64,000 nt of DNA, from the NCBI GenBank assembly GCA_030834695.1, contig JAUQXK010000100.1:1-64000 (forward strand), read 5' to 3'. Position numbers and translations under genes: made by a program. This DNA is from Desulfobacterales bacterium. GTDB lineage: Bacteria; Desulfobacterota; Desulfobacteria; Desulfobacterales; SpSt-501. The notes beneath the pieces were generated by a model. It did not search any database. It was not told the origin of the DNA and was given only the letters and a program-made list of their open reading frames with translations. Each line of letters begins with the position of its first letter. Position 1 is the first letter of the stretch. Below are positions 2,303 through 11,573 of the stretch, in pieces.

Positions 2303-3994
2303 ATGACGCCTTCCGATGTGAATGCCGTCCTTGAAAAAGCGGCGGTCCCGGAGCATTCCGTTGCCTTCATGGCGGCCATGTCGGATGGGGAGCCGTTTCT
2401 GGTGGGCACCTACCTATTCATCGCGGCCGAGGACTGGCTGTTGGCGGTGGGCTACCCCATTGAAGACGGTGCCAGCTCCGGTGGATTCGAGCAGGCTCTG
2501 GCCGAGGCGTTACGCCGCACGGCCGCGCGCGACTGCTGGGCGATCTGCCCCGAGTTGCCCGAGCGGTTGAAGACGTATTGCAACAGCCGGGATCAATACT
2601 ATATCCTCGCTCTCGCTGCGGCGGTATCCGGGCGTCTGGAACGACTGGCAGAGCGGGCCGCGGCGAACCTCACGGTCGAAGCTGGAATTGCCTTTACGCC
2701 GGCCCATCGGCGCCTGTGGGCCGAGTTCACGGGCCGGACGGCCCTGCCTCCGAACGTGCGCGAGCTTTACGCCCGCACCGAGTCCGTGCTCCAGCGGGCT
2801 CCCGGCCTATCGCTGCTCAACGCCTGGGGCCGGGACGGCAACCTCGCCGCCTGCCTGCTGCTGGACGCGGCACCGCACCGCTTCACAAGCTACCTCCTCG
2901 GCGCCCACTCCCGCACGCCTTATACCCCCTACGCCTCGGACCTGCTCTTCCGTGAAATGATCCGCATGGCCAAACGCGACGGGAAGGAATACCTGAATCT
3001 CGGGCTGGGGGTGAACGACGGGATTCGGAGGTTCAAAGCCAAGTGGGGCGCCACGCCCGGGCTGTCATACGAAATGGCACAGTGGCAGGAGCGCGCCGGC
3101 CTGCGCGAGGGCGTCGGCGACCTCATGCGCATGCTGGCCGCCATGCCCCGGGAATCCATGTCCAAGCAGCAGTTCCTGGCCAGCCTGCCGCCGCAACGCC
3201 GCTTCGCCATGCTCTGGGAAATCGAGAAAAACGGTCGCCGTTCCTGGATCGGCGGCACGGCACATTTCTTCTGCTACAGCTTCGAACGCTCTTTCCGGGA
3301 GCTGTTCGAAAAGGTCGACACGGTGCTCTTCGAAGGTCCGCTCGATCAGAGGAGCCTGGACCAGGTATCCGAACAAGGGCGAACCCCGGGCACCGAAAGC
3401 CCGCGGGTGGCCGACGCCATGACCGAGGAGGACATCCGCCGCCTGGAGCGGGTGGTCTGCGGCCCGCGCGGGTTCTGGGCGCGATTCATGGGCGCCGAAC
3501 ACAAGAACCCTCCGGACGTGCGCCACCTGCTGGCCCACACCCGCCATTGGATGGCGTTTTTTTCGCTGTGGACCGGCTTTCTGGCCCGACGCGGCTGGAC
3601 CCAGTCCGTGGACTTGGAAGCCTGGCAGCTGGCCCTTGAGATGGGCAAGGCGGTGCGCGGCATGGAGAGCATCCCCGAGCAGATCGAGACGCTGGAGAAC
3701 ATTCCCATGCCGCGGATCGTGAATTTCCTGCGGCAGTGCCGGCAGTGGGACCGTTACATCCAGCGCAACGTACGCGCCTACCTCAAAGGCGATGTGGACC
3801 GCATGTTCGGCACCAGCATCGAGTTTCCGACCCGGACCGAGCTCGTCATCCATCGCCGCGACAGCCGCTTCCTCGAGCGCATGCGGCCCTGCATCGATCA
3901 GGGGCGCTGCGCGGTCTTCGTAGGGTCGGCGCATATGATCAACCTGCGCGCCATGTTGGCCGGGGCTGGCTTCCGCATCCGGAGGATGCGATGA
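2303..3994 (+). CDS. fusion of a GNAT/FemAB-like domain and a TraB/GumN-like domain
   Basis: Two-domain protein of 563 aa. Residues about 1-265 look like a GNAT (BioF2/FemAB-type) acyl- or aminoacyl-transferase, ending in LNLGLGVNDGIRRFKAKWGA, the signature that closes such folds. Residues about 300-563 resemble the TraB/PrgY/GumN (TIKI-like) family: WEIEKNGRRSWIGGTAHF with the first GxxH-type motif G318-T-A-H321, a VLFEGPLD segment, and a second GSAH (H544) near the end. TIKI proteins are metalloproteases; GumN members are mostly uncharacterised. No signal peptide or membrane segment is evident. The stop overlaps the start of the next gene (ATGA), and that gene is a clear paralog of the N-terminal half. 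I do not recognise the fusion as a described protein, and the function is unknown. Confidence 0.85.
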   Translation: MTPSDVNAVLEKAAVPEHSVAFMAAMSDGEPFLVGTYLFIAAEDWLLAVGYPIEDGASSGGFEQALAEALRRTAARDCWAICPELPERLKTYCNSRDQYYILALAAAVSGRLERLAERAAANLTVEAGIAFTPAHRRLWAEFTGRTALPPNVRELYARTESVLQRAPGLSLLNAWGRDGNLAACLLLDAAPHRFTSYLLGAHSRTPYTPYASDLLFREMIRMAKRDGKEYLNLGLGVNDGIRRFKAKWGATPGLSYEMAQWQERAGLREGVGDLMRMLAAMPRESMSKQQFLASLPPQRRFAMLWEIEKNGRRSWIGGTAHFFCYSFERSFRELFEKVDTVLFEGPLDQRSLDQVSEQGRTPGTESPRVADAMTEEDIRRLERVVCGPRGFWARFMGAEHKNPPDVRHLLAHTRHWMAFFSLWTGFLARRGWTQSVDLEAWQLALEMGKAVRGMESIPEQIETLENIPMPRIVNFLRQCRQWDRYIQRNVRAYLKGDVDRMFGTSIEFPTRTELVIHRRDSRFLERMRPCIDQGRCAVFVGSAHMINLRAMLAGAGFRIRRMR

Positions 3995-4845
3995 TCGGCC
4001 CGGATCGACTGGCGCGGGTGACCGCCGCCGCGGTGGTGCCCGAGCAGGTGGTGGGCTACGTCAGCGCGGTGGCCGGGTCGAAGCCACGGATGTTCGGCGC
4101 CTGTGTGGGGTATCCATCCGACGCGGCGATTGTCCTGGTCGGCTACCCTCTGCACGACCCGCTCGACGGGACCGCCATGGCTGCGGCCGTGGACCAGGCG
4201 CTTCGAACCCCGGGGCTGGAACGCATTACCGTCATCGGCCCGGCGCGTCCGCCGCAGGCCCCCGCAAAAAGCGAAACCGCAAGGGACCATTATTATGCAC
4301 TGCCGCTGCCGGAGCCGGCCGCGGGTCAAAAACTGAAAAACCTCCTGCGCCGTGCCGGCCGTGACGTGCGGCTCGCTGCCGGCCGGCGTTTCGAGGACGA
4401 CCACGCGGCACTGGTTCAACGCTATCTGGATGAGCGCTCGCTGGCAGCCGGCACCCGGCAGATCTTCCGGCGGTTGGCGAGCTATGTGGAAGCTTCGGCC
4501 GGTAGCCTGATCGTCTCGGCCCGAAGGACGGACGGACGCCTGGCCGCGTTCGCCGTGGGCGAATTCGCGTCGCTCTCCACGGCCTTTTTCATGTTCTGCT
4601 TTCGCGATCCGCACCTCGCTCCGCCCGGGAGCGCCGACCTCGCGCTGTCCGGACTGTTGCAGGCAGCGCGGCAACGCGGCCAGGCCCGCATGAACCTGGG
4701 CCTGGGCGTCAGCGACGGCATCCGCTTCTTCAAACGCAAGTGGGGTGCGGAGCCTTTTCTGCCGTATGTCGAAACCAGCTGGCAGCCAGCCGGCCCGGGG
4801 CTGCTCTCACGCCTGCGCGGCCTGCTCGGGAGAGACCCGAGATGA
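3991..4845 (+). CDS. GNAT/FemAB-like protein, paralog of the preceding gene's N-terminal half
   Basis: 284 aa from the ATG at 3991, which overlaps the previous stop as ATGA and has GGAGG at 3981-3985; the open frame continues further upstream but that part only shadows the previous gene. It matches the first half of the upstream fusion along its length: VPEQVVGYVSAV against VPEHSVAFMAAM, VLVGYPLHD against LAVGYPIED, ARDHYYALPL against SRDQYYILAL, and MNLGLGVSDGIRFFKRKWGA near the end. It lacks the TraB/GumN domain. A tandem duplication, with one copy gaining or losing the second domain, is the simplest explanation. Probably cytosolic; the acyl or aminoacyl group transferred is unknown. Confidence 0.85.
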   Translation: MIGPDRLARVTAAAVVPEQVVGYVSAVAGSKPRMFGACVGYPSDAAIVLVGYPLHDPLDGTAMAAAVDQALRTPGLERITVIGPARPPQAPAKSETARDHYYALPLPEPAAGQKLKNLLRRAGRDVRLAAGRRFEDDHAALVQRYLDERSLAAGTRQIFRRLASYVEASAGSLIVSARRTDGRLAAFAVGEFASLSTAFFMFCFRDPHLAPPGSADLALSGLLQAARQRGQARMNLGLGVSDGIRFFKRKWGAEPFLPYVETSWQPAGPGLLSRLRGLLGRDPR

Positions 4846-5888
4846 AGAAGCCATCGATCACCGGCAGCGGCATCGAATTCCGCGAACCGGGATTTTGGGA
4901 GACCGTGCGGGAGGTCTTTCTCGGCGCCCGGCGGCCGTTCGACTGCATTCAGGTGGAAGTCACCTCACGCTGTCCGGGCCGTTGCACATACTGCCCCCAC
5001 ACCACCCTGAAAGACCGTTGGCAGGCGCGGGACATGGACATAACCACTTTCGGCCGGATCTGGCCCCTGATGCGAAAATCCGGCCGGGTGCATCTTCAGG
5101 GCTGGGGCGAGCCGTTGCTGAATCCGGCTTTTTTCGAAATGGCGGCGCTGGCCCGCAAAGCCGGTTGCCAGGTCTCCTCCACCACCTGCGGCCTGCGCAT
5201 GGACCCGGAGCTGGCGCTCCGGATCGTCGAAAGCGGCATCGACATCGTGGCCTTCTCGCTGGCCGGAACCGACGCGGCCTCCAACGCCTCGCGATGCGGG
5301 GTGGACTTCGAGCGGGTCTGCGATGCCGTGTCCGTGTTGCAGAACGTTCGGCGGGATCGCACGGGGGTGCATCTGGAAATCCATTTTGCCTACTTGATGC
5401 TGGCCTCCCGCATCGGCGCCGTGCGGGGACTGCCGCTGCTGATGGAGCGGCTCGGCGTGCATGCAGCGGTGATTTCGACGCTGGACTACCTCCCCGACCC
5501 CGGCCTGGCGGCCGAGGCGTTTCAACCCCATGAAGCCGAAAAACTCGCCGGGGCGGCGGCCATCCTCGGTGAAACCGCCGCCGAGGCCCGCCGCCGGGGC
5601 TTGGGGTTCCACTACGAGCTTCCGAGCCCCGGCGGTGCGGGCACCACCTGCCGGGAGAACATCAGCCGCTCCCTGTTTATCGCCGCAGACGGTGCGGTGT
5701 CGCCATGCGTTTACGTCAACGTGCCTGCGGCGGTCGTCGACCCCCGGCGGCGCGTTTTCGGAAACGTGCGTGAGCAGGACCCCTTAGCAATATGGGAAAG
5801 CGAGGGTTTTCGCCGCTTCCGCGAGCGCCTCGCCTGCGGCGACCCGGATCATTCCTGCCGCGCCTGTCCGAAGCGGTTCATGAAGTAA
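4842..5888 (+). CDS. radical SAM protein with SPASM-like C-terminal cysteines
   Basis: 348 aa from the ATG at 4842 (ATGA overlap with the previous gene). The [4Fe-4S]/SAM motif is C44-x3-C48-x2-C51 (CPGRCTYC), followed by a GWGEPLLNP segment typical of the family. The C-terminus carries extra cysteines at C270, C289, C332, C339 and C342, including the SRSLFIAADGAVSPC stretch and HSCRAC, as in SPASM domains that hold auxiliary clusters. Such enzymes often modify peptides or proteins, or act in cofactor and lipid maturation. Tight coupling to two GNAT-like genes implies a shared substrate. No obvious precursor peptide is upstream, but a 57-residue protein gene follows at 5993. Confidence 0.9.
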   Translation: MKKPSITGSGIEFREPGFWETVREVFLGARRPFDCIQVEVTSRCPGRCTYCPHTTLKDRWQARDMDITTFGRIWPLMRKSGRVHLQGWGEPLLNPAFFEMAALARKAGCQVSSTTCGLRMDPELALRIVESGIDIVAFSLAGTDAASNASRCGVDFERVCDAVSVLQNVRRDRTGVHLEIHFAYLMLASRIGAVRGLPLLMERLGVHAAVISTLDYLPDPGLAAEAFQPHEAEKLAGAAAILGETAAEARRRGLGFHYELPSPGGAGTTCRENISRSLFIAADGAVSPCVYVNVPAAVVDPRRRVFGNVREQDPLAIWESEGFRRFRERLACGDPDHSCRACPKRFMK

Positions 5889-6696: not shown

Positions 6697-7989
6697 ATGC
6701 ATTATGACACCGCGCTGCGGGCTTACACCGCGAAGCGGATCGAGGAAATCGACTCCGCGGACATCCTGATCGGTGTGCCCTGCTACAACAACGAGAGCAC
6801 CATCGTGCACGTGATCCAGATGATCACCCACGGCTTGGCCAAACATTACGGCGGCCGGCGCAGCGTCATCTTCATCGCCGACGGCGGTTCCACCGACGAC
6901 ACGCGGGAGGCGGCGAAGGAGTTCCAGATCAAACCCTGGCAGGAGAAGATCATCTCCATCTATCGAGGGCCGGCGGGCAAGGGCACCGCCCTGCGCTCCG
7001 TCTTCGAGGCCGCCGACCGGCTAAATGTTTCGGTCTGTGCCATGGTCGATTCGGACCTGCGCAGCATCACGGCCGACTGGGTCAAGTACCTGCTCGACCC
7101 GGTTTTGGAGAAGGGCTACCAGTTCGTGGCACCGGTCTACGTGCGGCACAAGTTCGACGGCACCATCACCAACAACATCGTCTACAACCTCACCCGCGCG
7201 CTCTACGGCAAACGAATTCGACAGCCCATCGGCGGCGATTTCGCCATCTCGCGGGATGCGGCCAAATTCTACTCCGAACAGGATGTCTGGCTGACGGACG
7301 TGGCGCGCTTCGGCATCGACATCTGGATGACGACCAGTGCCATCACCAAGGGGTTCCGGATCTGCCAGTCGAATCTGGGCGTCAAGATCCACGACGTCAA
7401 GGACCCCGGCCAGCACCTGGGGCCGATGTTTCGGCAGGTGCTCTCGGCGCTTTTCTCTTTGATGGAACGCTATGAAAGCTACTGGAAAAGCATCAAGGGC
7501 AGCGAACCGCTGGAGACGTTCGGGTTCGAGGGTGCGCCGGAACCCGAACCCGTGAAGGTTAATCTCGATCTGTTGATCGATCTCTTCAAAACCGGCTACC
7601 AGCAGCTCTCACCGCTCTGGCGCGACATCTTCGACGAGGACAGCTTCAAGCAGATCAGCCAAGCCGCCTGCATGGACGCGAAGGACTTCCACCTGCCCAC
7701 CGAGTCCTGGGTGAAAATTCTTTATGAGTTGGCGGCCACCTATCGTCTCTGGACCGTCAACCGCGAAAAGCTGGTCGACATGATGACGCCGCTCTATTAT
7801 GCCCGGGTGGCTTCCTTCGTGCGGCAGAGCCGAGACATGTCCTCCCGGGAGGCGGAGGACCTGGTCGAAGAACAGGCTCTTCGATTCGAGGAGCAAAAGG
7901 AATATCTCATTAAAATCTGGGATGGAAAATCCGCGCAGGCCGCTAAGAGCGATCCAAGAGCCAAAATCGAATGCCCGGTTCAAGACTGA
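6697..7989 (+). CDS. GT-A glycosyltransferase resembling mannosyl-/glucosylglycerate synthases
   Basis: 430 aa, with AAGGAGG about 10 nt before the ATG. The N-terminal GT-A fold shows GVPCYNNESTI, ADGGSTDDT and the metal/nucleotide motif D118-S-D120 (VDSDLRSI). The middle has QPIGGDFAIS and a FGIDIWMTTSAI segment, and the C-terminal third is helical. This order, including the GGD/GID motifs, resembles GT78 mannosylglycerate synthase and GT81 glucosyl-3-phosphoglycerate synthase more than ordinary GT2 enzymes. A compatible-solute glycoside is therefore a reasonable guess, though a cell-surface glycan enzyme is possible. No phosphatase partner of the GpgP type is adjacent. Its last 10 bp overlap the 3' end of the convergent SpoIIE-type gene. 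Confidence 0.8.
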   Translation: MHYDTALRAYTAKRIEEIDSADILIGVPCYNNESTIVHVIQMITHGLAKHYGGRRSVIFIADGGSTDDTREAAKEFQIKPWQEKIISIYRGPAGKGTALRSVFEAADRLNVSVCAMVDSDLRSITADWVKYLLDPVLEKGYQFVAPVYVRHKFDGTITNNIVYNLTRALYGKRIRQPIGGDFAISRDAAKFYSEQDVWLTDVARFGIDIWMTTSAITKGFRICQSNLGVKIHDVKDPGQHLGPMFRQVLSALFSLMERYESYWKSIKGSEPLETFGFEGAPEPEPVKVNLDLLIDLFKTGYQQLSPLWRDIFDEDSFKQISQAACMDAKDFHLPTESWVKILYELAATYRLWTVNREKLVDMMTPLYYARVASFVRQSRDMSSREAEDLVEEQALRFEEQKEYLIKIWDGKSAQAAKSDPRAKIECPVQD

Positions 7990-9635
7990 CGCGTGTTGAT
8001 TTTTATGATGACCAGGGTCACGTCGTCTTCTCTTTTAGCGCCGGACTGGAACTTCTCCAAGGTGGAGAGAATCGACTCCAGAATTTCATTTGCACTCAAA
8101 GCGCAATTTTTCCGAATGGTATCGTGAATTGACTGTTTGCCGAGCATTTCGCCTTTCGGGTTGGCCGCTTCCCAGAGACCGTCCGTGCCGAGCAGGATGA
8201 CCTGGCCATCTGAAATCCCGGTCTTGCGGTTGTTGCTGCAGGGGCATTTCTCATCAACACCCAGCGCCATGCCCGTGCCGCCCATCTCCTCGAACGAGCC
8301 GGTGCCGGGGTCGTAGAGAAATGCGGGATCATGTCCGGCCCGCACCCATTCAAGCTCCATTTTCACCGGGTCGATCACCAAGAAAAACAACGTGATAAAC
8401 TCTCCGGAGTGCCCGACGTCGCTTGAAATCTGGCGATTCACATCGGCGATGATTCGGTCCGCGGAGCCCGGATGGGAAGCCCGCTGTCTCAGAGCGGATC
8501 GAACGGTTGCCATCAACAAAGCCGCGGGGATGCCATGCCCCGATACATCCCCGACGGCGACTCCCCATTTTCGACCATCGCCGCCGGCCATTGGGATGAA
8601 GTCGTAATAATCCCCGCCGGTTTCATCGCAGTAGATGCTCTTGCCGGCCGCCTCGAATCCCTCCGTTTTCAGAGCTTGCTTGGGGATAAGACTCTGCTGA
8701 ACCTCCTTGGCCAAGCTCAGAGCCTGCTTGATCCGGTCGCGCTCCAGGAGGCCCTCGGTCATCTCGTTGATCACATCCCCGGCATACCCGATTTCGTCAT
8801 TGGAGGTCACCCGCACTTTGGTTTCGAAAAGACCGTTCTTGACCTTGCGCAGCACATTCGTGATCTCCGCCAACGGTTGAGTCAGATTGCTGCTCACCAG
8901 AAAGGTAACCCACATGCCGACTCCCATGAACACCAAGGCCTGGCTGAAGATGACCGTCTTGATCTGCTCCACGGATACGTGCGGCAACTCATCGGCCGGG
9001 AATATGCCCACCACGTGCTGCAGGATAGAAATGAGCGGAATGATATTGCTGGCCAGCAGCAGGGCAAAGAGTCGGGTCCGGATACGGATGCGCAGGGTGC
9101 GGGGGGTCGTCGAGAGGCCGCCGTCCGGGAAAAAATAGGGAACCACCCTTCGCTGGAGGGTGAATTCCAGCACAAAAAAGGCCACGGTCACCGTTATCAA
9201 TCCGGTATAAACGCTGCGGTAGAAAACACTCTGGATCAGCTTCCAGCCGGCCCCCTGCACCCAGAACGCACCGGAGTAGATCAGCGCGGCGGCCATCCAG
9301 ATGCAGAAGGCCAGCGTGATGAGAAAAAACGGCTCGTTGAGCAGTCTCCGGCGGGCTTCGAGAATAAGCTCCTCCGGCAGCGGCCTTCTTTGATAGCTTC
9401 TTTTCAGGTAGTCGCGGATCGGCCGCTCATAAACCAGAATCAACGCAAAGGGGACAACGAAGGAGGCCGGCAGGAAAAACCGGTCGATGCGGCCGGTCAG
9501 TCGCAGGATGTCGGCCGGAATCAGCGCCGTCGACTGCTGGGTCAAAAAAAGGATAACGGCAACGCCAATGGCGTTGGAAATGAGGATCGAAAAAAGCATG
9601 GAATTTTTGACGCGAAGATAAGCGAACCTGGACAT
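7980..9635 (-). CDS. membrane-bound PP2C/SpoIIE-type serine phosphatase with HAMP
   Basis: 551 aa from the ATG at 9635, preceded by AAGGAGGT; the longer frame upstream only shadows the transketolase gene. The N-terminal half has several hydrophobic segments (from about residue 10, then further pairs) around a short periplasmic part. A HAMP-like linker (NLTQPLAEITNVLRKVKNG) follows, then a SpoIIE/PP2C phosphatase domain with DETGGDYYDF, VGDVSGHGIPAALLMA, RAGHDPAFL, LGTDGLWEA and REDDVTLV. Such proteins dephosphorylate anti-sigma-factor antagonists in partner-switching signalling. No RsbW/RsbV-like partner is in the window. It follows the two transketolase genes by 70 bp on the same strand. Confidence 0.92.
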   Translation of the reverse strand: MSRFAYLRVKNSMLFSILISNAIGVAVILFLTQQSTALIPADILRLTGRIDRFFLPASFVVPFALILVYERPIRDYLKRSYQRRPLPEELILEARRRLLNEPFFLITLAFCIWMAAALIYSGAFWVQGAGWKLIQSVFYRSVYTGLITVTVAFFVLEFTLQRRVVPYFFPDGGLSTTPRTLRIRIRTRLFALLLASNIIPLISILQHVVGIFPADELPHVSVEQIKTVIFSQALVFMGVGMWVTFLVSSNLTQPLAEITNVLRKVKNGLFETKVRVTSNDEIGYAGDVINEMTEGLLERDRIKQALSLAKEVQQSLIPKQALKTEGFEAAGKSIYCDETGGDYYDFIPMAGGDGRKWGVAVGDVSGHGIPAALLMATVRSALRQRASHPGSADRIIADVNRQISSDVGHSGEFITLFFLVIDPVKMELEWVRAGHDPAFLYDPGTGSFEEMGGTGMALGVDEKCPCSNNRKTGISDGQVILLGTDGLWEAANPKGEMLGKQSIHDTIRKNCALSANEILESILSTLEKFQSGAKREDDVTLVIIKINTRQS

Positions 9636-9705
9636 GTGGGACCTCCTTGGAGGAAGCCTTTCCAAAGACAAACGTGGGCATCCGTTCAGGAGTGCAGGAC
9701 CAATA

Positions 9706-10659
9706 CTACTTGGACTTGGATCGCGAAAGCGCCCGGCAGGCCTGTGCGATGTGCTCGGGACCGAAGCCGTGCTTGTTGAAGAGGTAATCCTGGTCGGCCA
9801 CTTCCCCGAACCGGTCCGGGATGCCCAGTCGCTTGACCCGCACCGGGTGATGCTCGCCCAGCACCTCGCAGACCGCGCTCCCCACCCCGCCGACGATGTT
9901 CTGGTTTTCGACCACGACCACCGCACCGGTTTTTTGGGCGGAATCGACGAGCGTCTTGACGTCGAAGGGTTTGACCGAGGGGTAGTGCAGCAGGTCGACC
10001 GTGATTTTCTCTTTCTCAAGCCGTCGGGCGACGTCCAGGGCAAAGCTTGTCATGAACCCGGTGGCAACCAGTGTCACGTCTCTGCCATCGTGCAGACGAA
10101 TGGCCTGGTTCGGGTCGAAAAGGCAGCCGTCCTCGAAGAGCTTGGGCATCTTCAGCCGCACGAGTTGCATGTAGGTGGGCTGCTTGCTTTCGGCCATGTA
10201 GAACATGACCGCGCGCAGCTCGTTGGCATCGGCCGGGCTGTAGACATGCATATTCGGCATGGCGCGCATGATGGCGAGATCCTGGAAGCACATATGGGTG
10301 CCGCCGTTCGGGCCCTGGGTGATGCCGGGAGAGGTGCCGACGATCTTAACGTTGTTATTGGCGTAAGCGACGCTGATGGTGATCTGGTCGTAGCAGCGGC
10401 GGGTGGCGAAGGCGGTGAATGTGGCGCAGAAGGGGATCTTGCCTTCCCGGGCCAGGCCGGCTCCAACGCCGATCATGTTGGCTTCCTGAACCCCGCAGTT
10501 GATGAAATTGCGGGGGTGGCTCTTGGAGACCACGGGAATGGAGGCATCGGCCTTGCCCAGATCAGCCTCCAGGCAGAATACATCGGCATTGCGCTCGATC
10601 AGCTCGCTCAGCGTCTGCGCGTACACCACCCGCATTTCCATCTCATGGTAGTTGCTCAT
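9706..10659 (-). CDS. transketolase, C-terminal (pyrimidine-binding) subunit
   Basis: 317 aa from the ATG at 10659, with GGAAAGGA upstream; a TTG at 10674 is a poorer start. It contains the transketolase Pyr domain (CGVQEANMIGVGAGLA, TFTAFATRRCYDQI) and the C-terminal domain (VVVVENQNIVGGVGSAV). With the upstream subunit it would form a two-polypeptide transketolase that transfers two-carbon units between sugar phosphates using thiamine diphosphate. Split transketolases are common outside the pentose phosphate operon, and may act in aromatic precursor or sugar-acid metabolism. It lies 65 bp after the N-terminal subunit gene, with an inverted repeat in the gap. Confidence 0.92.
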   Translation of the reverse strand: MSNYHEMEMRVVYAQTLSELIERNADVFCLEADLGKADASIPVVSKSHPRNFINCGVQEANMIGVGAGLAREGKIPFCATFTAFATRRCYDQITISVAYANNNVKIVGTSPGITQGPNGGTHMCFQDLAIMRAMPNMHVYSPADANELRAVMFYMAESKQPTYMQLVRLKMPKLFEDGCLFDPNQAIRLHDGRDVTLVATGFMTSFALDVARRLEKEKITVDLLHYPSVKPFDVKTLVDSAQKTGAVVVVENQNIVGGVGSAVCEVLGEHHPVRVKRLGIPDRFGEVADQDYLFNKHGFGPEHIAQACRALSRSKSK

Positions 10660-10684
10660 TTGTTTCCTTTCCAAATTTTACAAG

Positions 10685-10731
10685 CTATTAGAGGATGTTA
10701 AAGCCGGTTCGGCATGAAAATCCTCTAATAG
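10685..10731. repeat. 12-bp inverted repeat between the two transketolase subunit genes
   Basis: CTATTAGAGGAT (10685-10696) and its exact reverse complement (10720-10731) enclose 23 nt. One arm contains the stop codon of the N-terminal subunit gene. There is no T-run, so it is more likely an intercistronic mRNA structure than a full terminator. Confidence 0.6.
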
Positions 10732-11573
10732 GGGAGATCGAATTTGCACTCCAGACCGCACATCAACCGCTGGTAGGTGGTTTCGTCCGGGATCTTGACG
10801 TTGTGGCAGTCCACCAGCCCTTCGGTTTCGCGGTTGCCTTTGCCCTTGACGGTGTGGGCGATGATCATGGCCGGCCGGCCGGTTACGGCACCGGCCTTTT
10901 GAATCGTGTCGTAGATGCCGTCCCAGTCGTGGCCGTTCATTTCGAAGGTCTCCCAGCCGAAGGCGCGCCATTTGTCCGCCAGCGGTTCGAGGTCGATGAT
11001 CTCATCGGTGCGGCCGTCGATCTGCATCTTGTTGTAGTCGCAGATGACGATCAGGTTGTCCAGCCGGTTGTGGGCCGCAAACAGGGCCGCCTCCCAGATC
11101 TGCCCCTCATCGCTTTCGCCGTCGCCGATGATGCAAAATACGCGATGCGTTTTGCCGTCATGCTTGGCAGCCAGCGCCAGGCCGCAGGCGCAGGAAAGAC
11201 CCTGGCCGAGCGATCCGGCGGTGATATCGACTCCGGGGGTCAGGATCTGATCCATGTGGCTCGGCAGGCGGGTGCCGTTTTTATTGATGGTCGTCAGCCA
11301 TTCCTTCGGAAAGAAGCCCTTGTAGGCCAGGGTCGTGTAAACGACCGGCCCGGCGTGGCCTTTTGACAGCACCAGCCGATCGCGCTCGGGCCAGTTGGGC
11401 TCATCCGGTTTGACCTTCATGATGCGATAATAAAGGGTGATGACGATTTCCACCAGGCTCATCACGCCGCCGATGTGTCCCACGCCCGAACGGCAGATGG
11501 CGTCCGTGACCACGTAACGGAATTCCGCCGCCAATGAATCCAGTTGCTCGCGAGTCATTTCTTTTTTGTCCAA
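10725..11573 (-). CDS. transketolase, N-terminal (thiamine diphosphate-binding) subunit
   Basis: 282 aa with the full ThDP/Mg motif (GDGESDEGQ ... CDYN), LSKGHAGPVVY and PGVDITAGSLGQGLS, as in transketolase N-terminal halves. The start is probably the TTG at 11573, because GGAGG sits 6 nt before it; the in-frame ATG at 11558 is about 21 nt from that site. It is the first gene of a likely three-gene unit with the other subunit and the SpoIIE-type phosphatase. Confidence 0.93.
   Translation of the reverse strand: MDKKEMTREQLDSLAAEFRYVVTDAICRSGVGHIGGVMSLVEIVITLYYRIMKVKPDEPNWPERDRLVLSKGHAGPVVYTTLAYKGFFPKEWLTTINKNGTRLPSHMDQILTPGVDITAGSLGQGLSCACGLALAAKHDGKTHRVFCIIGDGESDEGQIWEAALFAAHNRLDNLIVICDYNKMQIDGRTDEIIDLEPLADKWRAFGWETFEMNGHDWDGIYDTIQKAGAVTGRPAMIIAHTVKGKGNRETEGLVDCHNVKIPDETTYQRLMCGLECKFDLPY

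Follow-up and report, generated by a model that had tools for sequence, protein, structure and literature searches.

A conserved gene module of two FemX-like GNAT paralogs, a TraB/GumN domain and a radical-SAM protein in sulfate-reducing and related bacteria

Genes and domains at the locus

In the 64,000-nucleotide stretch of Desulfobacterales bacterium DNA analysed here (assembly GCA_030834695.1, contig JAUQXK010000100.1, positions 1 to 64,000, hereafter the window), three genes on the forward strand, named A, B and C, encode a fusion of a GNAT domain with a TraB/PrgY/GumN domain, a second GNAT protein and a radical-SAM protein. A preliminary description of the sequence had proposed these genes as a candidate system. 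This is well supported, since the conserved order of the genes, the shared presence of GNAT and TraB across genomes, the ancient separation of the two GNAT paralogs and two kinds of natural gene fusion all argue for a real, conserved multi-gene system rather than a chance neighbourhood. Its parts recur as a unit, in which the first GNAT (GNAT-1) pairs with TraB, to which it is fused here, and the second (GNAT-2) pairs with the radical-SAM protein, to which it is fused elsewhere. The features of the locus are as follows, and the two ATGA overlaps that the preliminary description had seen joining the three open reading frames (ORFs) are indeed present.

2303..3994, + strand: gene A, GNAT-1 + TraB/PrgY/GumN fusion, ORF of 563 residues (Pfam, AlphaFold2 model)
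2303..3103, + strand: GNAT-1 domain of A, FemX-like double GNAT, residues 1-267 (VIA-align; invariant F244-K245-x-K247-W248)
3209..3985, + strand: TraB/GumN (TIKI-superfamily) domain of A, residues 303-561 (PF01963, 1.4e-33; G318-T-A-H321, E344, R519, G541-S-A-H544)
3991..3994, + strand: ATGA overlap of A stop and B start (sequence)
3991..4845, + strand: gene B, GNAT-2, second FemX-like double GNAT and radical-SAM partner, 284 residues (Pfam, tree, fold of the L099 fusion)
4842..4845, + strand: ATGA overlap of B stop and C start (sequence)
4842..5888, + strand: gene C, radical-SAM protein with a Twitch-type C-terminal domain, 348 residues (Pfam, alignment, fold of the L099 fusion)
4953..5351, + strand: radical SAM core of C, residues 38-170, C44-x3-C48-x2-C51 (Pfam, alignment)
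5649..5870, + strand: predicted Twitch-type auxiliary-cluster domain of C, residues 270-343, C270-x13-G284-x4-C289 ... C339-x2-C342 (Pfam, alignment)

The Pfam cut-offs are passed by both halves of A, with 25.1 bits for Acetyltransf_6 (cut-off 22) and 117.4 bits for TraB_PrgY_gumN (cut-off 26.8). B matches Acetyltransf_6 with 22.8 bits and misses the LPG_synthase_C cut-off (PF09924; 16.9 bits against 27.5), for which A is not listed at E <= 1, while C matches Radical_SAM with 54.5 bits and SPASM with 48.4 bits (shorter model PF13186). In NCBIfam no family matched A, and B gave a sub-threshold arginyltransferase match alone (19 of 170 bits). The best matches of C there are TIGR04317, a tungsten-oxidoreductase radical-SAM maturase (105.9 bits, cut-off 380), and TIGR04311 (103.7 bits, cut-off 400), yet both scores are far below the cut-offs, so that C is a member of neither family and a role as tungsten-enzyme maturase was rejected.

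The AlphaFold2 model of A, made with 64 sequences, has a mean predicted local distance difference test (pLDDT) score of 87.6 and shows two domains with a low-confidence linker at residues 266-291; at its predicted template modelling (pTM) score of 0.51 the relative placement of the two halves is not to be trusted. The folds of GNAT-2 and of the radical-SAM protein were read from the model of a natural fusion of B and C at another locus, L099 (pLDDT 90.8, pTM 0.59). As judged from these models, both GNATs fold as double GNATs in the manner of FemX and the L-PGS enzymes; the assignment of this part of A to the GNATs stands, and the single GNAT of the preliminary description gives way to a double one of about 265 residues. 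A Foldseek search with the model of A gave L-PGS 4v36 first (8.7e-11) and FemX next (1.6e-10). In VIA-align comparisons, GNAT-1 scored Z 20.3 with FemX 7z6a (root-mean-square deviation 3.4, 257 residues aligned), 19.9 with Sbb17 (3.8, 246) and 18.6 with MprF (4.3, 248), the range for MprF and L-PGS being 16.9-18.6, while the tandem GNATs MAB_4324 and VipF gave 15.7 (4.9, 209) and 15.2 (5.5, 237) and mycothiol synthase 13.7. The modelled GNAT-1 thus appears closer to FemX and L-PGS than to acetyltransferases. The GNAT-2 part of the L099 fusion scored 18.8 with FemX 6snr (3.8, 259), 18.7 with Sbb17 (3.9, 245) and 17.9 with MprF, and no plain acetyltransferase is among the 50 matches listed for that model. 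No clear solved relative of the GNATs was found by sequence search.

Across 42 aligned GNATs drawn from the two clades, seven residues (F244, K245, K247, W248, D97, H135 and D213) never vary, and because the same residues are kept in both, the two paralogs look active. Catalytic or essential roles are described for Lys305 of FemX and Lys329 of DhpH-C, with Phe328 contributing (PMC12945691). The F244-K245 pair (42/42) resembles the Phe-Lys pair described there for DhpH-C, and on this pattern K245 is a candidate counterpart of FemX Lys305. The module GNATs share with FemX/FemABX, VlmA, DhpH-C, PacB, Orf11 and Sbb17 the double-GNAT fold (Z 18-20 to FemX and Sbb17) and a putative Phe-Lys dyad in the second GNAT, at about 11-18% identity in structural alignments. 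They differ from these enzymes in being fused to TraB or radical SAM and in being two old paralogs used together, and their use of tRNA is putative. To the C-terminal domain of L-PGS and MprF (PF09924) they are similar in fold, with Z about 17-18.6.

The GxxH motif is characteristic of the TraB/PrgY/GumN (TIKI) family, whose bacterial roles are poorly known. Pfam bears out the GNAT-TraB/GumN fusion with two such motifs, which the preliminary description had reported: in 95/95 aligned TraB domains G318, H321, E344, D437, R519, G541 and H544 are invariant, and in the model H321, E344 and H544 each lie 1-3 residues past the end of a predicted beta strand. The TIKI features, namely two GxxH motifs, a Glu and a basic residue, are all present in this domain. 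What sets A apart within its family is the fusion to a FemX-like transferase and the place in an enzyme module. For VvRRSP, a TIKI-family enzyme, a set of two His and two Glu with a conserved Arg is described (PMC6254334), and a host-associated Desulfovibrio group (COG3735/PF01963) has been compared with enterococcal TraB (PMC3608642). No solved relative of the TraB domain was found by sequence search, and its half gave no row among the 50 matches listed for the model of A; as one domain can account for all fifty, this is no evidence on the TraB fold.

C has both the CX3CX2C motif and, in the L099 fusion model, the radical-SAM core fold. As the preliminary description had it, it carries C44 (64/65 aligned sequences, the other being X), C48 and C51 (65/65 each) and five C-terminal cysteines, at 270, 289, 332, 339 and 342; its label as a SPASM protein did not hold. 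SPASM domains have seven cysteines (CX9-15GX4C-gap-CX2CX5CX3C-gap-C) and two clusters, while Twitch is a truncated form with one cluster (PMC6231123). In C only C270 (64/65), C289 (63/65), C339 (61/65) and C342 (62/65) are conserved, the remainder being gaps or X. C332 is visibly variable in the alignment (column uncounted) and the chain ends six residues past C342, so that the seven-cysteine motif is absent. In BtrN, which performs a two-electron oxidation, one auxiliary cluster is fully ligated by four cysteines (PMC9012708). From the four-cysteine pattern, the early chain end, the definitions of the two domains and the ligation in BtrN, C is called a Twitch-type radical-SAM enzyme with a predicted single auxiliary cluster. 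Its core fold is like that of BtrN, BlsE and DesII, the four-cysteine auxiliary site being shared with BtrN, and unlike these C is the partner of a FemX-like GNAT-2. The best single match of the radical-SAM part of the L099 fusion is BlsE (Z 24.1; 3.4, 278), and SuiB (23.4), DesII (22.8), anSME (22.7), SkfB (22.6) and BtrN (19.3; 2.9, 226) were also matched.

Conservation and history of the module

For the comparison of gene neighbourhoods, a pattern scan of contigs from one genome per species gave 167 GNAT-domain relatives, of which the best 80 were taken; six of the 80 loci (L038, L043, L046, L048, L052, L056) belong to genomes of the window's genus that are also in a set of 58 near-relative genomes. 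Alignments were made of the window's A with 63 of the 80 A candidates (the broken genes of L024 and L043, five repeated contigs and ten others were left out), of C with 41 of 53 and of B with 46 of 74. At 48 of the 80 loci GNAT-2 and then a radical-SAM domain come after the fused A on its strand; 36 of these are plain cases, in 7 a single ORF covers both GNAT-2 and radical SAM, and 5 lie close to a contig end. The GNAT-TraB fusion itself is found at 73. Hence the three genes do co-occur elsewhere, which was one of the tests by which the preliminary description could have been refuted. A-B comes with a reversed and more distant radical-SAM gene at four loci, TraB is a separate gene at six and the second GNAT lies on the opposite strand at two (L070, L073); contig ends cut short the view at four loci with A-B, four with A alone and one with a GNAT only.

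Among the 58 near relatives, 12 have a match to A at E <= 0.001, and A, B and C stand in this order in 7/7 genomes of the window's genus and in one genome of another family (G031). In two of them, G005 and G006, C is interrupted by the contig end, and in G005, of the same genus as the window, A is split over two frames with a break near residue 60 (contig C8, L024:1330-3007). In G034 GNAT-1 and TraB are two adjacent genes (L032), and GNAT-2 lies elsewhere (L033). G031 also carries a second copy of the module (contig C76, L029:568-6831) with a YeiH-type transporter, two NF038143 genes, A and C, and without B.

The separate form of TraB was followed at 17 further loci of 20 fetched (L146-L148 being repeats of L039, L051 and L054). 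At eight of them, from other families, GNAT-1, TraB, GNAT-2 and radical SAM are four separate genes in order; the remaining nine comprise three that by this count have GNAT-1 and TraB only, two with radical SAM on the opposite strand, three at a contig end and one, L162, with GNAT-2 and no radical SAM. Adjacent module parts are present on contigs of metagenome-assembled genomes (MAGs) labelled Nitrospirota or Nitrospinota (L107, L110, L112, L115); GNAT-2 takes the first place in L107 and L110, and L115 has an additional TraB. A occurs also in one MAG labelled Clostridia (L062), and the cultured Desulfovibrio piger ATCC 29098 carries the module (L096). One frame of about 658 codons joins a GNAT and the first part of TraB to the later part of a radical-SAM domain (G109, contig C10, L276:271-2244), which is either a deletion chimera or an assembly error.

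In a phylum-wide set of 395 genomes, with E <= 1e-20 for TraB and GNAT, the TraB type occurs in 29 genomes and the GNAT type in 30, of which 29 are common to both, the lone GNAT genome (G206) having a partial match; TraB and GNAT are thus almost perfectly tied. C belongs to a wider family, called at E <= 1e-55, that is present in 69 genomes, including 27 of the 29 with TraB, not always beside the module and sometimes on another contig.

That B is a paralog of the GNAT half of A, as first described, is confirmed, with the addition that the split is old, the identity between the two being 28%. A tree of 77 GNAT domains divides into 40 and 37 rows with support 100/100. Every one of the 20 TraB-fused rows falls on the first side, together with 18 of the 20 that stand directly upstream of a separate TraB and 2 others; on the second side are the 2 remaining upstream rows, the full set of 20 from downstream of TraB and 15 others. 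Rows from Nitrospirota and Nitrospinota fall on both sides, and therefore the duplication is probably older than the module's spread, making GNAT-1 and GNAT-2 old paralogs. The TraB fusion has a single origin in this sample (100/100). In the tree of 65 radical-SAM domains the window type lies in one clade of 26 (100/100), while of the 13 rows of the separate-TraB type 11 lie in a second clade and the other two, L150 and L152, in a third, which they share with fusions of a short-chain dehydrogenase (SDR) and radical SAM. Fusions of GNAT-2 to radical SAM occur in the window-type clade, at 7 of the 80 loci (L087 and L092 coming from one MAG), and in the third clade, in L152 (GNAT 124-246, radical SAM 365-526). 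This pairing with different radical-SAM lineages argues for a functional link between the two, though the radical-SAM tree is unrooted and one old, diverged partner is possible.

Search for further partners

A shared small-peptide gene, which the preliminary description had raised, was not found: 3454 small ORFs (20-130 residues) within 1.5 kb at 101 loci were clustered by pairwise BLAST, and the largest families reach 5 loci each, all from one lineage. The same search led to the rejection of a precursor beside the maturase for a ribosomally synthesized and post-translationally modified peptide (RiPP); as it relied on pairwise BLAST, short, fast-changing or very divergent peptides could be missed, and a distant precursor is possible. 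Clustering of flanking ORFs of at least 60 residues at 86 loci (the window, 8 loci of relatives and 77 of the 80) gave no non-module cluster beyond 9 loci. A defence system was also rejected, with no PADLOC match for A or B and only weak viperin matches for C (38 and 22 bits), as expected from the shared radical-SAM core.

Two weaker partners are the YeiH-type transporter (PF03601) and the NF038143 proteins, which are repeatedly seen next to each other, next to radical-SAM relatives of C and next to some copies of the module. NF038143 (cluster 5 of the flank clustering) was detected in 13/58 relatives at E <= 1e-8, 12 of them over the cut-off, and in 15/395 phylum genomes, 7 shared with TraB; since only 5/28 named module genomes have it, it is classed as an accessory, outside the core of the module. 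These proteins, with a HYxxLL motif, have about 200 residues and an unassigned function, and no literature on them was found. The transporter lies within 2.1 kb at 11/99 module loci and at 6/52 of those having at least 4 kb on both sides. At the genome level any PF03601 subtype is present in 23/28 module genomes, and in the sample of relatives in 8/10 with the module against 12/48 without it (two weak partial matches, G048 and G056, counted among those without). The link to the module is uneven, and as the samples differ and the relatives share ancestry, it is a lead and not part of our claim. In Salmonella, yeiH is described as driving sulfite resistance (PMC12880088).

In one genome of the window's genus (G002, L027) YeiH, NF038143, A, B and C stand in one row, and in the window's own genome YeiH and NF038143 lie together on another contig (G000, contig C21, L212:8048-10802). 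A YeiH-type transporter (about 510-600 residues) stands beside 10 of 21 relatives of C that have no GNAT or TraB in 1.5 kb flanks (L262-L266, L268, L270-L272 and L281; wider views L314-L323), and near NF038143 at 19 of 20 loci (L203-L222), 16 of them within 1.3 kb. Fusion proteins of 627-628 residues that join an SDR to a radical-SAM/SPASM domain occur near NF038143 and YeiH at L033:5268-7154 and L218:7816-9696, the former also near GNAT-2. At L210:6709-8393 a class-II tRNA-synthetase-like ORF (347 residues, tRNA-synt_2) overlaps the NF038143 ORF by one base.

In the window, genes for APS kinase and serine hydroxymethyltransferase lie on the divergent strand 5' of the module, and a GT2 glycosyltransferase (mannosylglycerate-synthase-like), a SpoIIE-type phosphatase and a split transketolase follow 3' of it (6697-11573). 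Glycosyltransferase and transketolase genes are also found downstream of the module in G003 and G004.

Proposed function and its meaning

Computation constrains the mechanism moderately. Our tentative reading is that A, B and C represent, in fused form, an old module of four enzymes for tRNA-dependent aminoacylation, radical oxidation and hydrolytic release. Like the preliminary description, we infer the transferase, radical and hydrolytic chemistry; the substrate is likewise inferred, and the order of the steps is a guess. GNAT-1 and GNAT-2 would each transfer an aminoacyl group from charged tRNA to an acceptor encoded outside the locus; a common metabolite or macromolecule is the probable candidate, given that the flank searches found no other gene, of whatever size, shared by a majority of the loci. 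C would carry out a two-electron oxidation of the aminoacylated intermediate that GNAT-2 makes or binds, its fully ligated auxiliary cluster taking an electron as proposed for BtrN. The TraB domain might hydrolyse a single amide or ester bond in the compound made or bound by GNAT-1, as product release or as editing; one aminoacyl group would stay in the product, and the second may serve as a handle or protecting group to be taken off by TraB. It is possible, though doubtful, that in Desulfobacterota, Nitrospirota and Nitrospinota this amounts to an undescribed old pathway, in which two dedicated tRNA-dependent aminoacyltransferases, one linked to a radical-SAM oxidase and the other to a TIKI-type hydrolase, make an aminoacyl-derived metabolite or cofactor from a common acceptor, and a YeiH-type transporter, with NF038143 in some lineages, moves the product or a sulfur-containing counterpart across the membrane.

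Several observations weigh against this proposal. The likeness to FemX is one of fold, with weak sequence matches (LPG_synthase_C in 17/42 GNATs, Acetyltransf_6 in 16/42); L-PGS stands just ahead of FemX in the Foldseek search with A, and the best GNAT match of the B-C model is 2hqy, a protein of unassigned function (Z 19.2; 4.1, 251). In the TraB domain, the Glu that VvRRSP has two residues before its first His is Thr319, so that the TIKI set is only partly matched. The module is also incomplete at some loci without a contig end within 2.3 kb: five of the 80 have A-B without a radical-SAM domain over the threshold (L041 keeps a remnant), and six have A alone. In 10 of the 12 incomplete-locus genomes, which were checked as a whole, a radical-SAM protein of the family was found in 10/10; only three of these proteins reach window-type scores (478-482 bits), and GNAT-2, present in 7/10, is missing in three MAGs of 1.3-2.0 Mb. 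Relatives of C occur in 42/395 genomes without TraB, hence the wider family of C also exists apart from the module.

Two other explanations, each rather unlikely, concern what the GNATs transfer. One is an aminoacyl-lipid cycle, in which they would be soluble lipid aminoacylators like L-PGS and MprF, TraB an aminoacyl-lipid hydrolase, and C an enzyme altering the head group. LPG_synthase_C is the Pfam family matched by most GNATs (best 3.4e-07), and the first Foldseek match, the MprF and L-PGS scores and the partial link of NF038143 and YeiH-type transporters to the module are consistent with such a cycle. However, VIA-align gives slightly higher scores to FemX and Sbb17, whose acceptors are soluble, there is no fused flippase domain, and B falls below the LPG_synthase_C cut-off. 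The other is an acyl-CoA pathway, in which the GNATs would be ordinary acyltransferases and TraB a deacylase, acting on a small metabolite or protein. The name of the Pfam domain, Acetyltransf_6, and the shared fold of tandem GNATs that use acetyl-CoA, such as VipF and mycothiol synthase, point this way, but for GNAT-1 the FemX-type enzymes score about 5 Z units above them. Still less probable is a RiPP-like peptide natural product pathway with the precursor gene elsewhere: peptide modification is common among Twitch/SPASM enzymes and both SuiB and SkfB rank high in the fold comparison of the radical-SAM part, yet small ORFs do not recur within 1.5 kb beyond 5 loci, and BlsE, the best single match, is a small-molecule enzyme. 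It is very improbable that the genes are neighbours kept by shared descent without joint function, since, although the co-occurrence counts include related genomes and are uncorrected for ancestry, the order is conserved in several families, adjacency persists in partly different order in the Nitrospirota and Nitrospinota contigs, GNAT-2 is fused to two radical-SAM clades and GNAT-1 to TraB, and the presence lists of GNAT and TraB are near-identical.

As far as our literature search reached, the module is undescribed: no paper on the combination of TraB/GumN, GNAT and radical SAM was found, most subscription journals being outside the search. The cell wall and natural products are named as tRNA-dependent settings in a review (PMC12945691), and another review is said to name lipid modification. 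If the GNATs of the module use aminoacyl-tRNA, this would be a tRNA-dependent pathway outside the cell wall, natural product and lipid settings, and if the proposal is true it would give TraB/GumN proteins a concrete partner. Although each of the four enzymes is of a known superfamily, the module is clearly delimited, old and present in cultured bacteria, and its small gene set, which can be deleted or reconstituted, offers a route to a new substrate. The module is present in many sulfate-reducing and related bacteria, in which it appears to make or modify a molecule.

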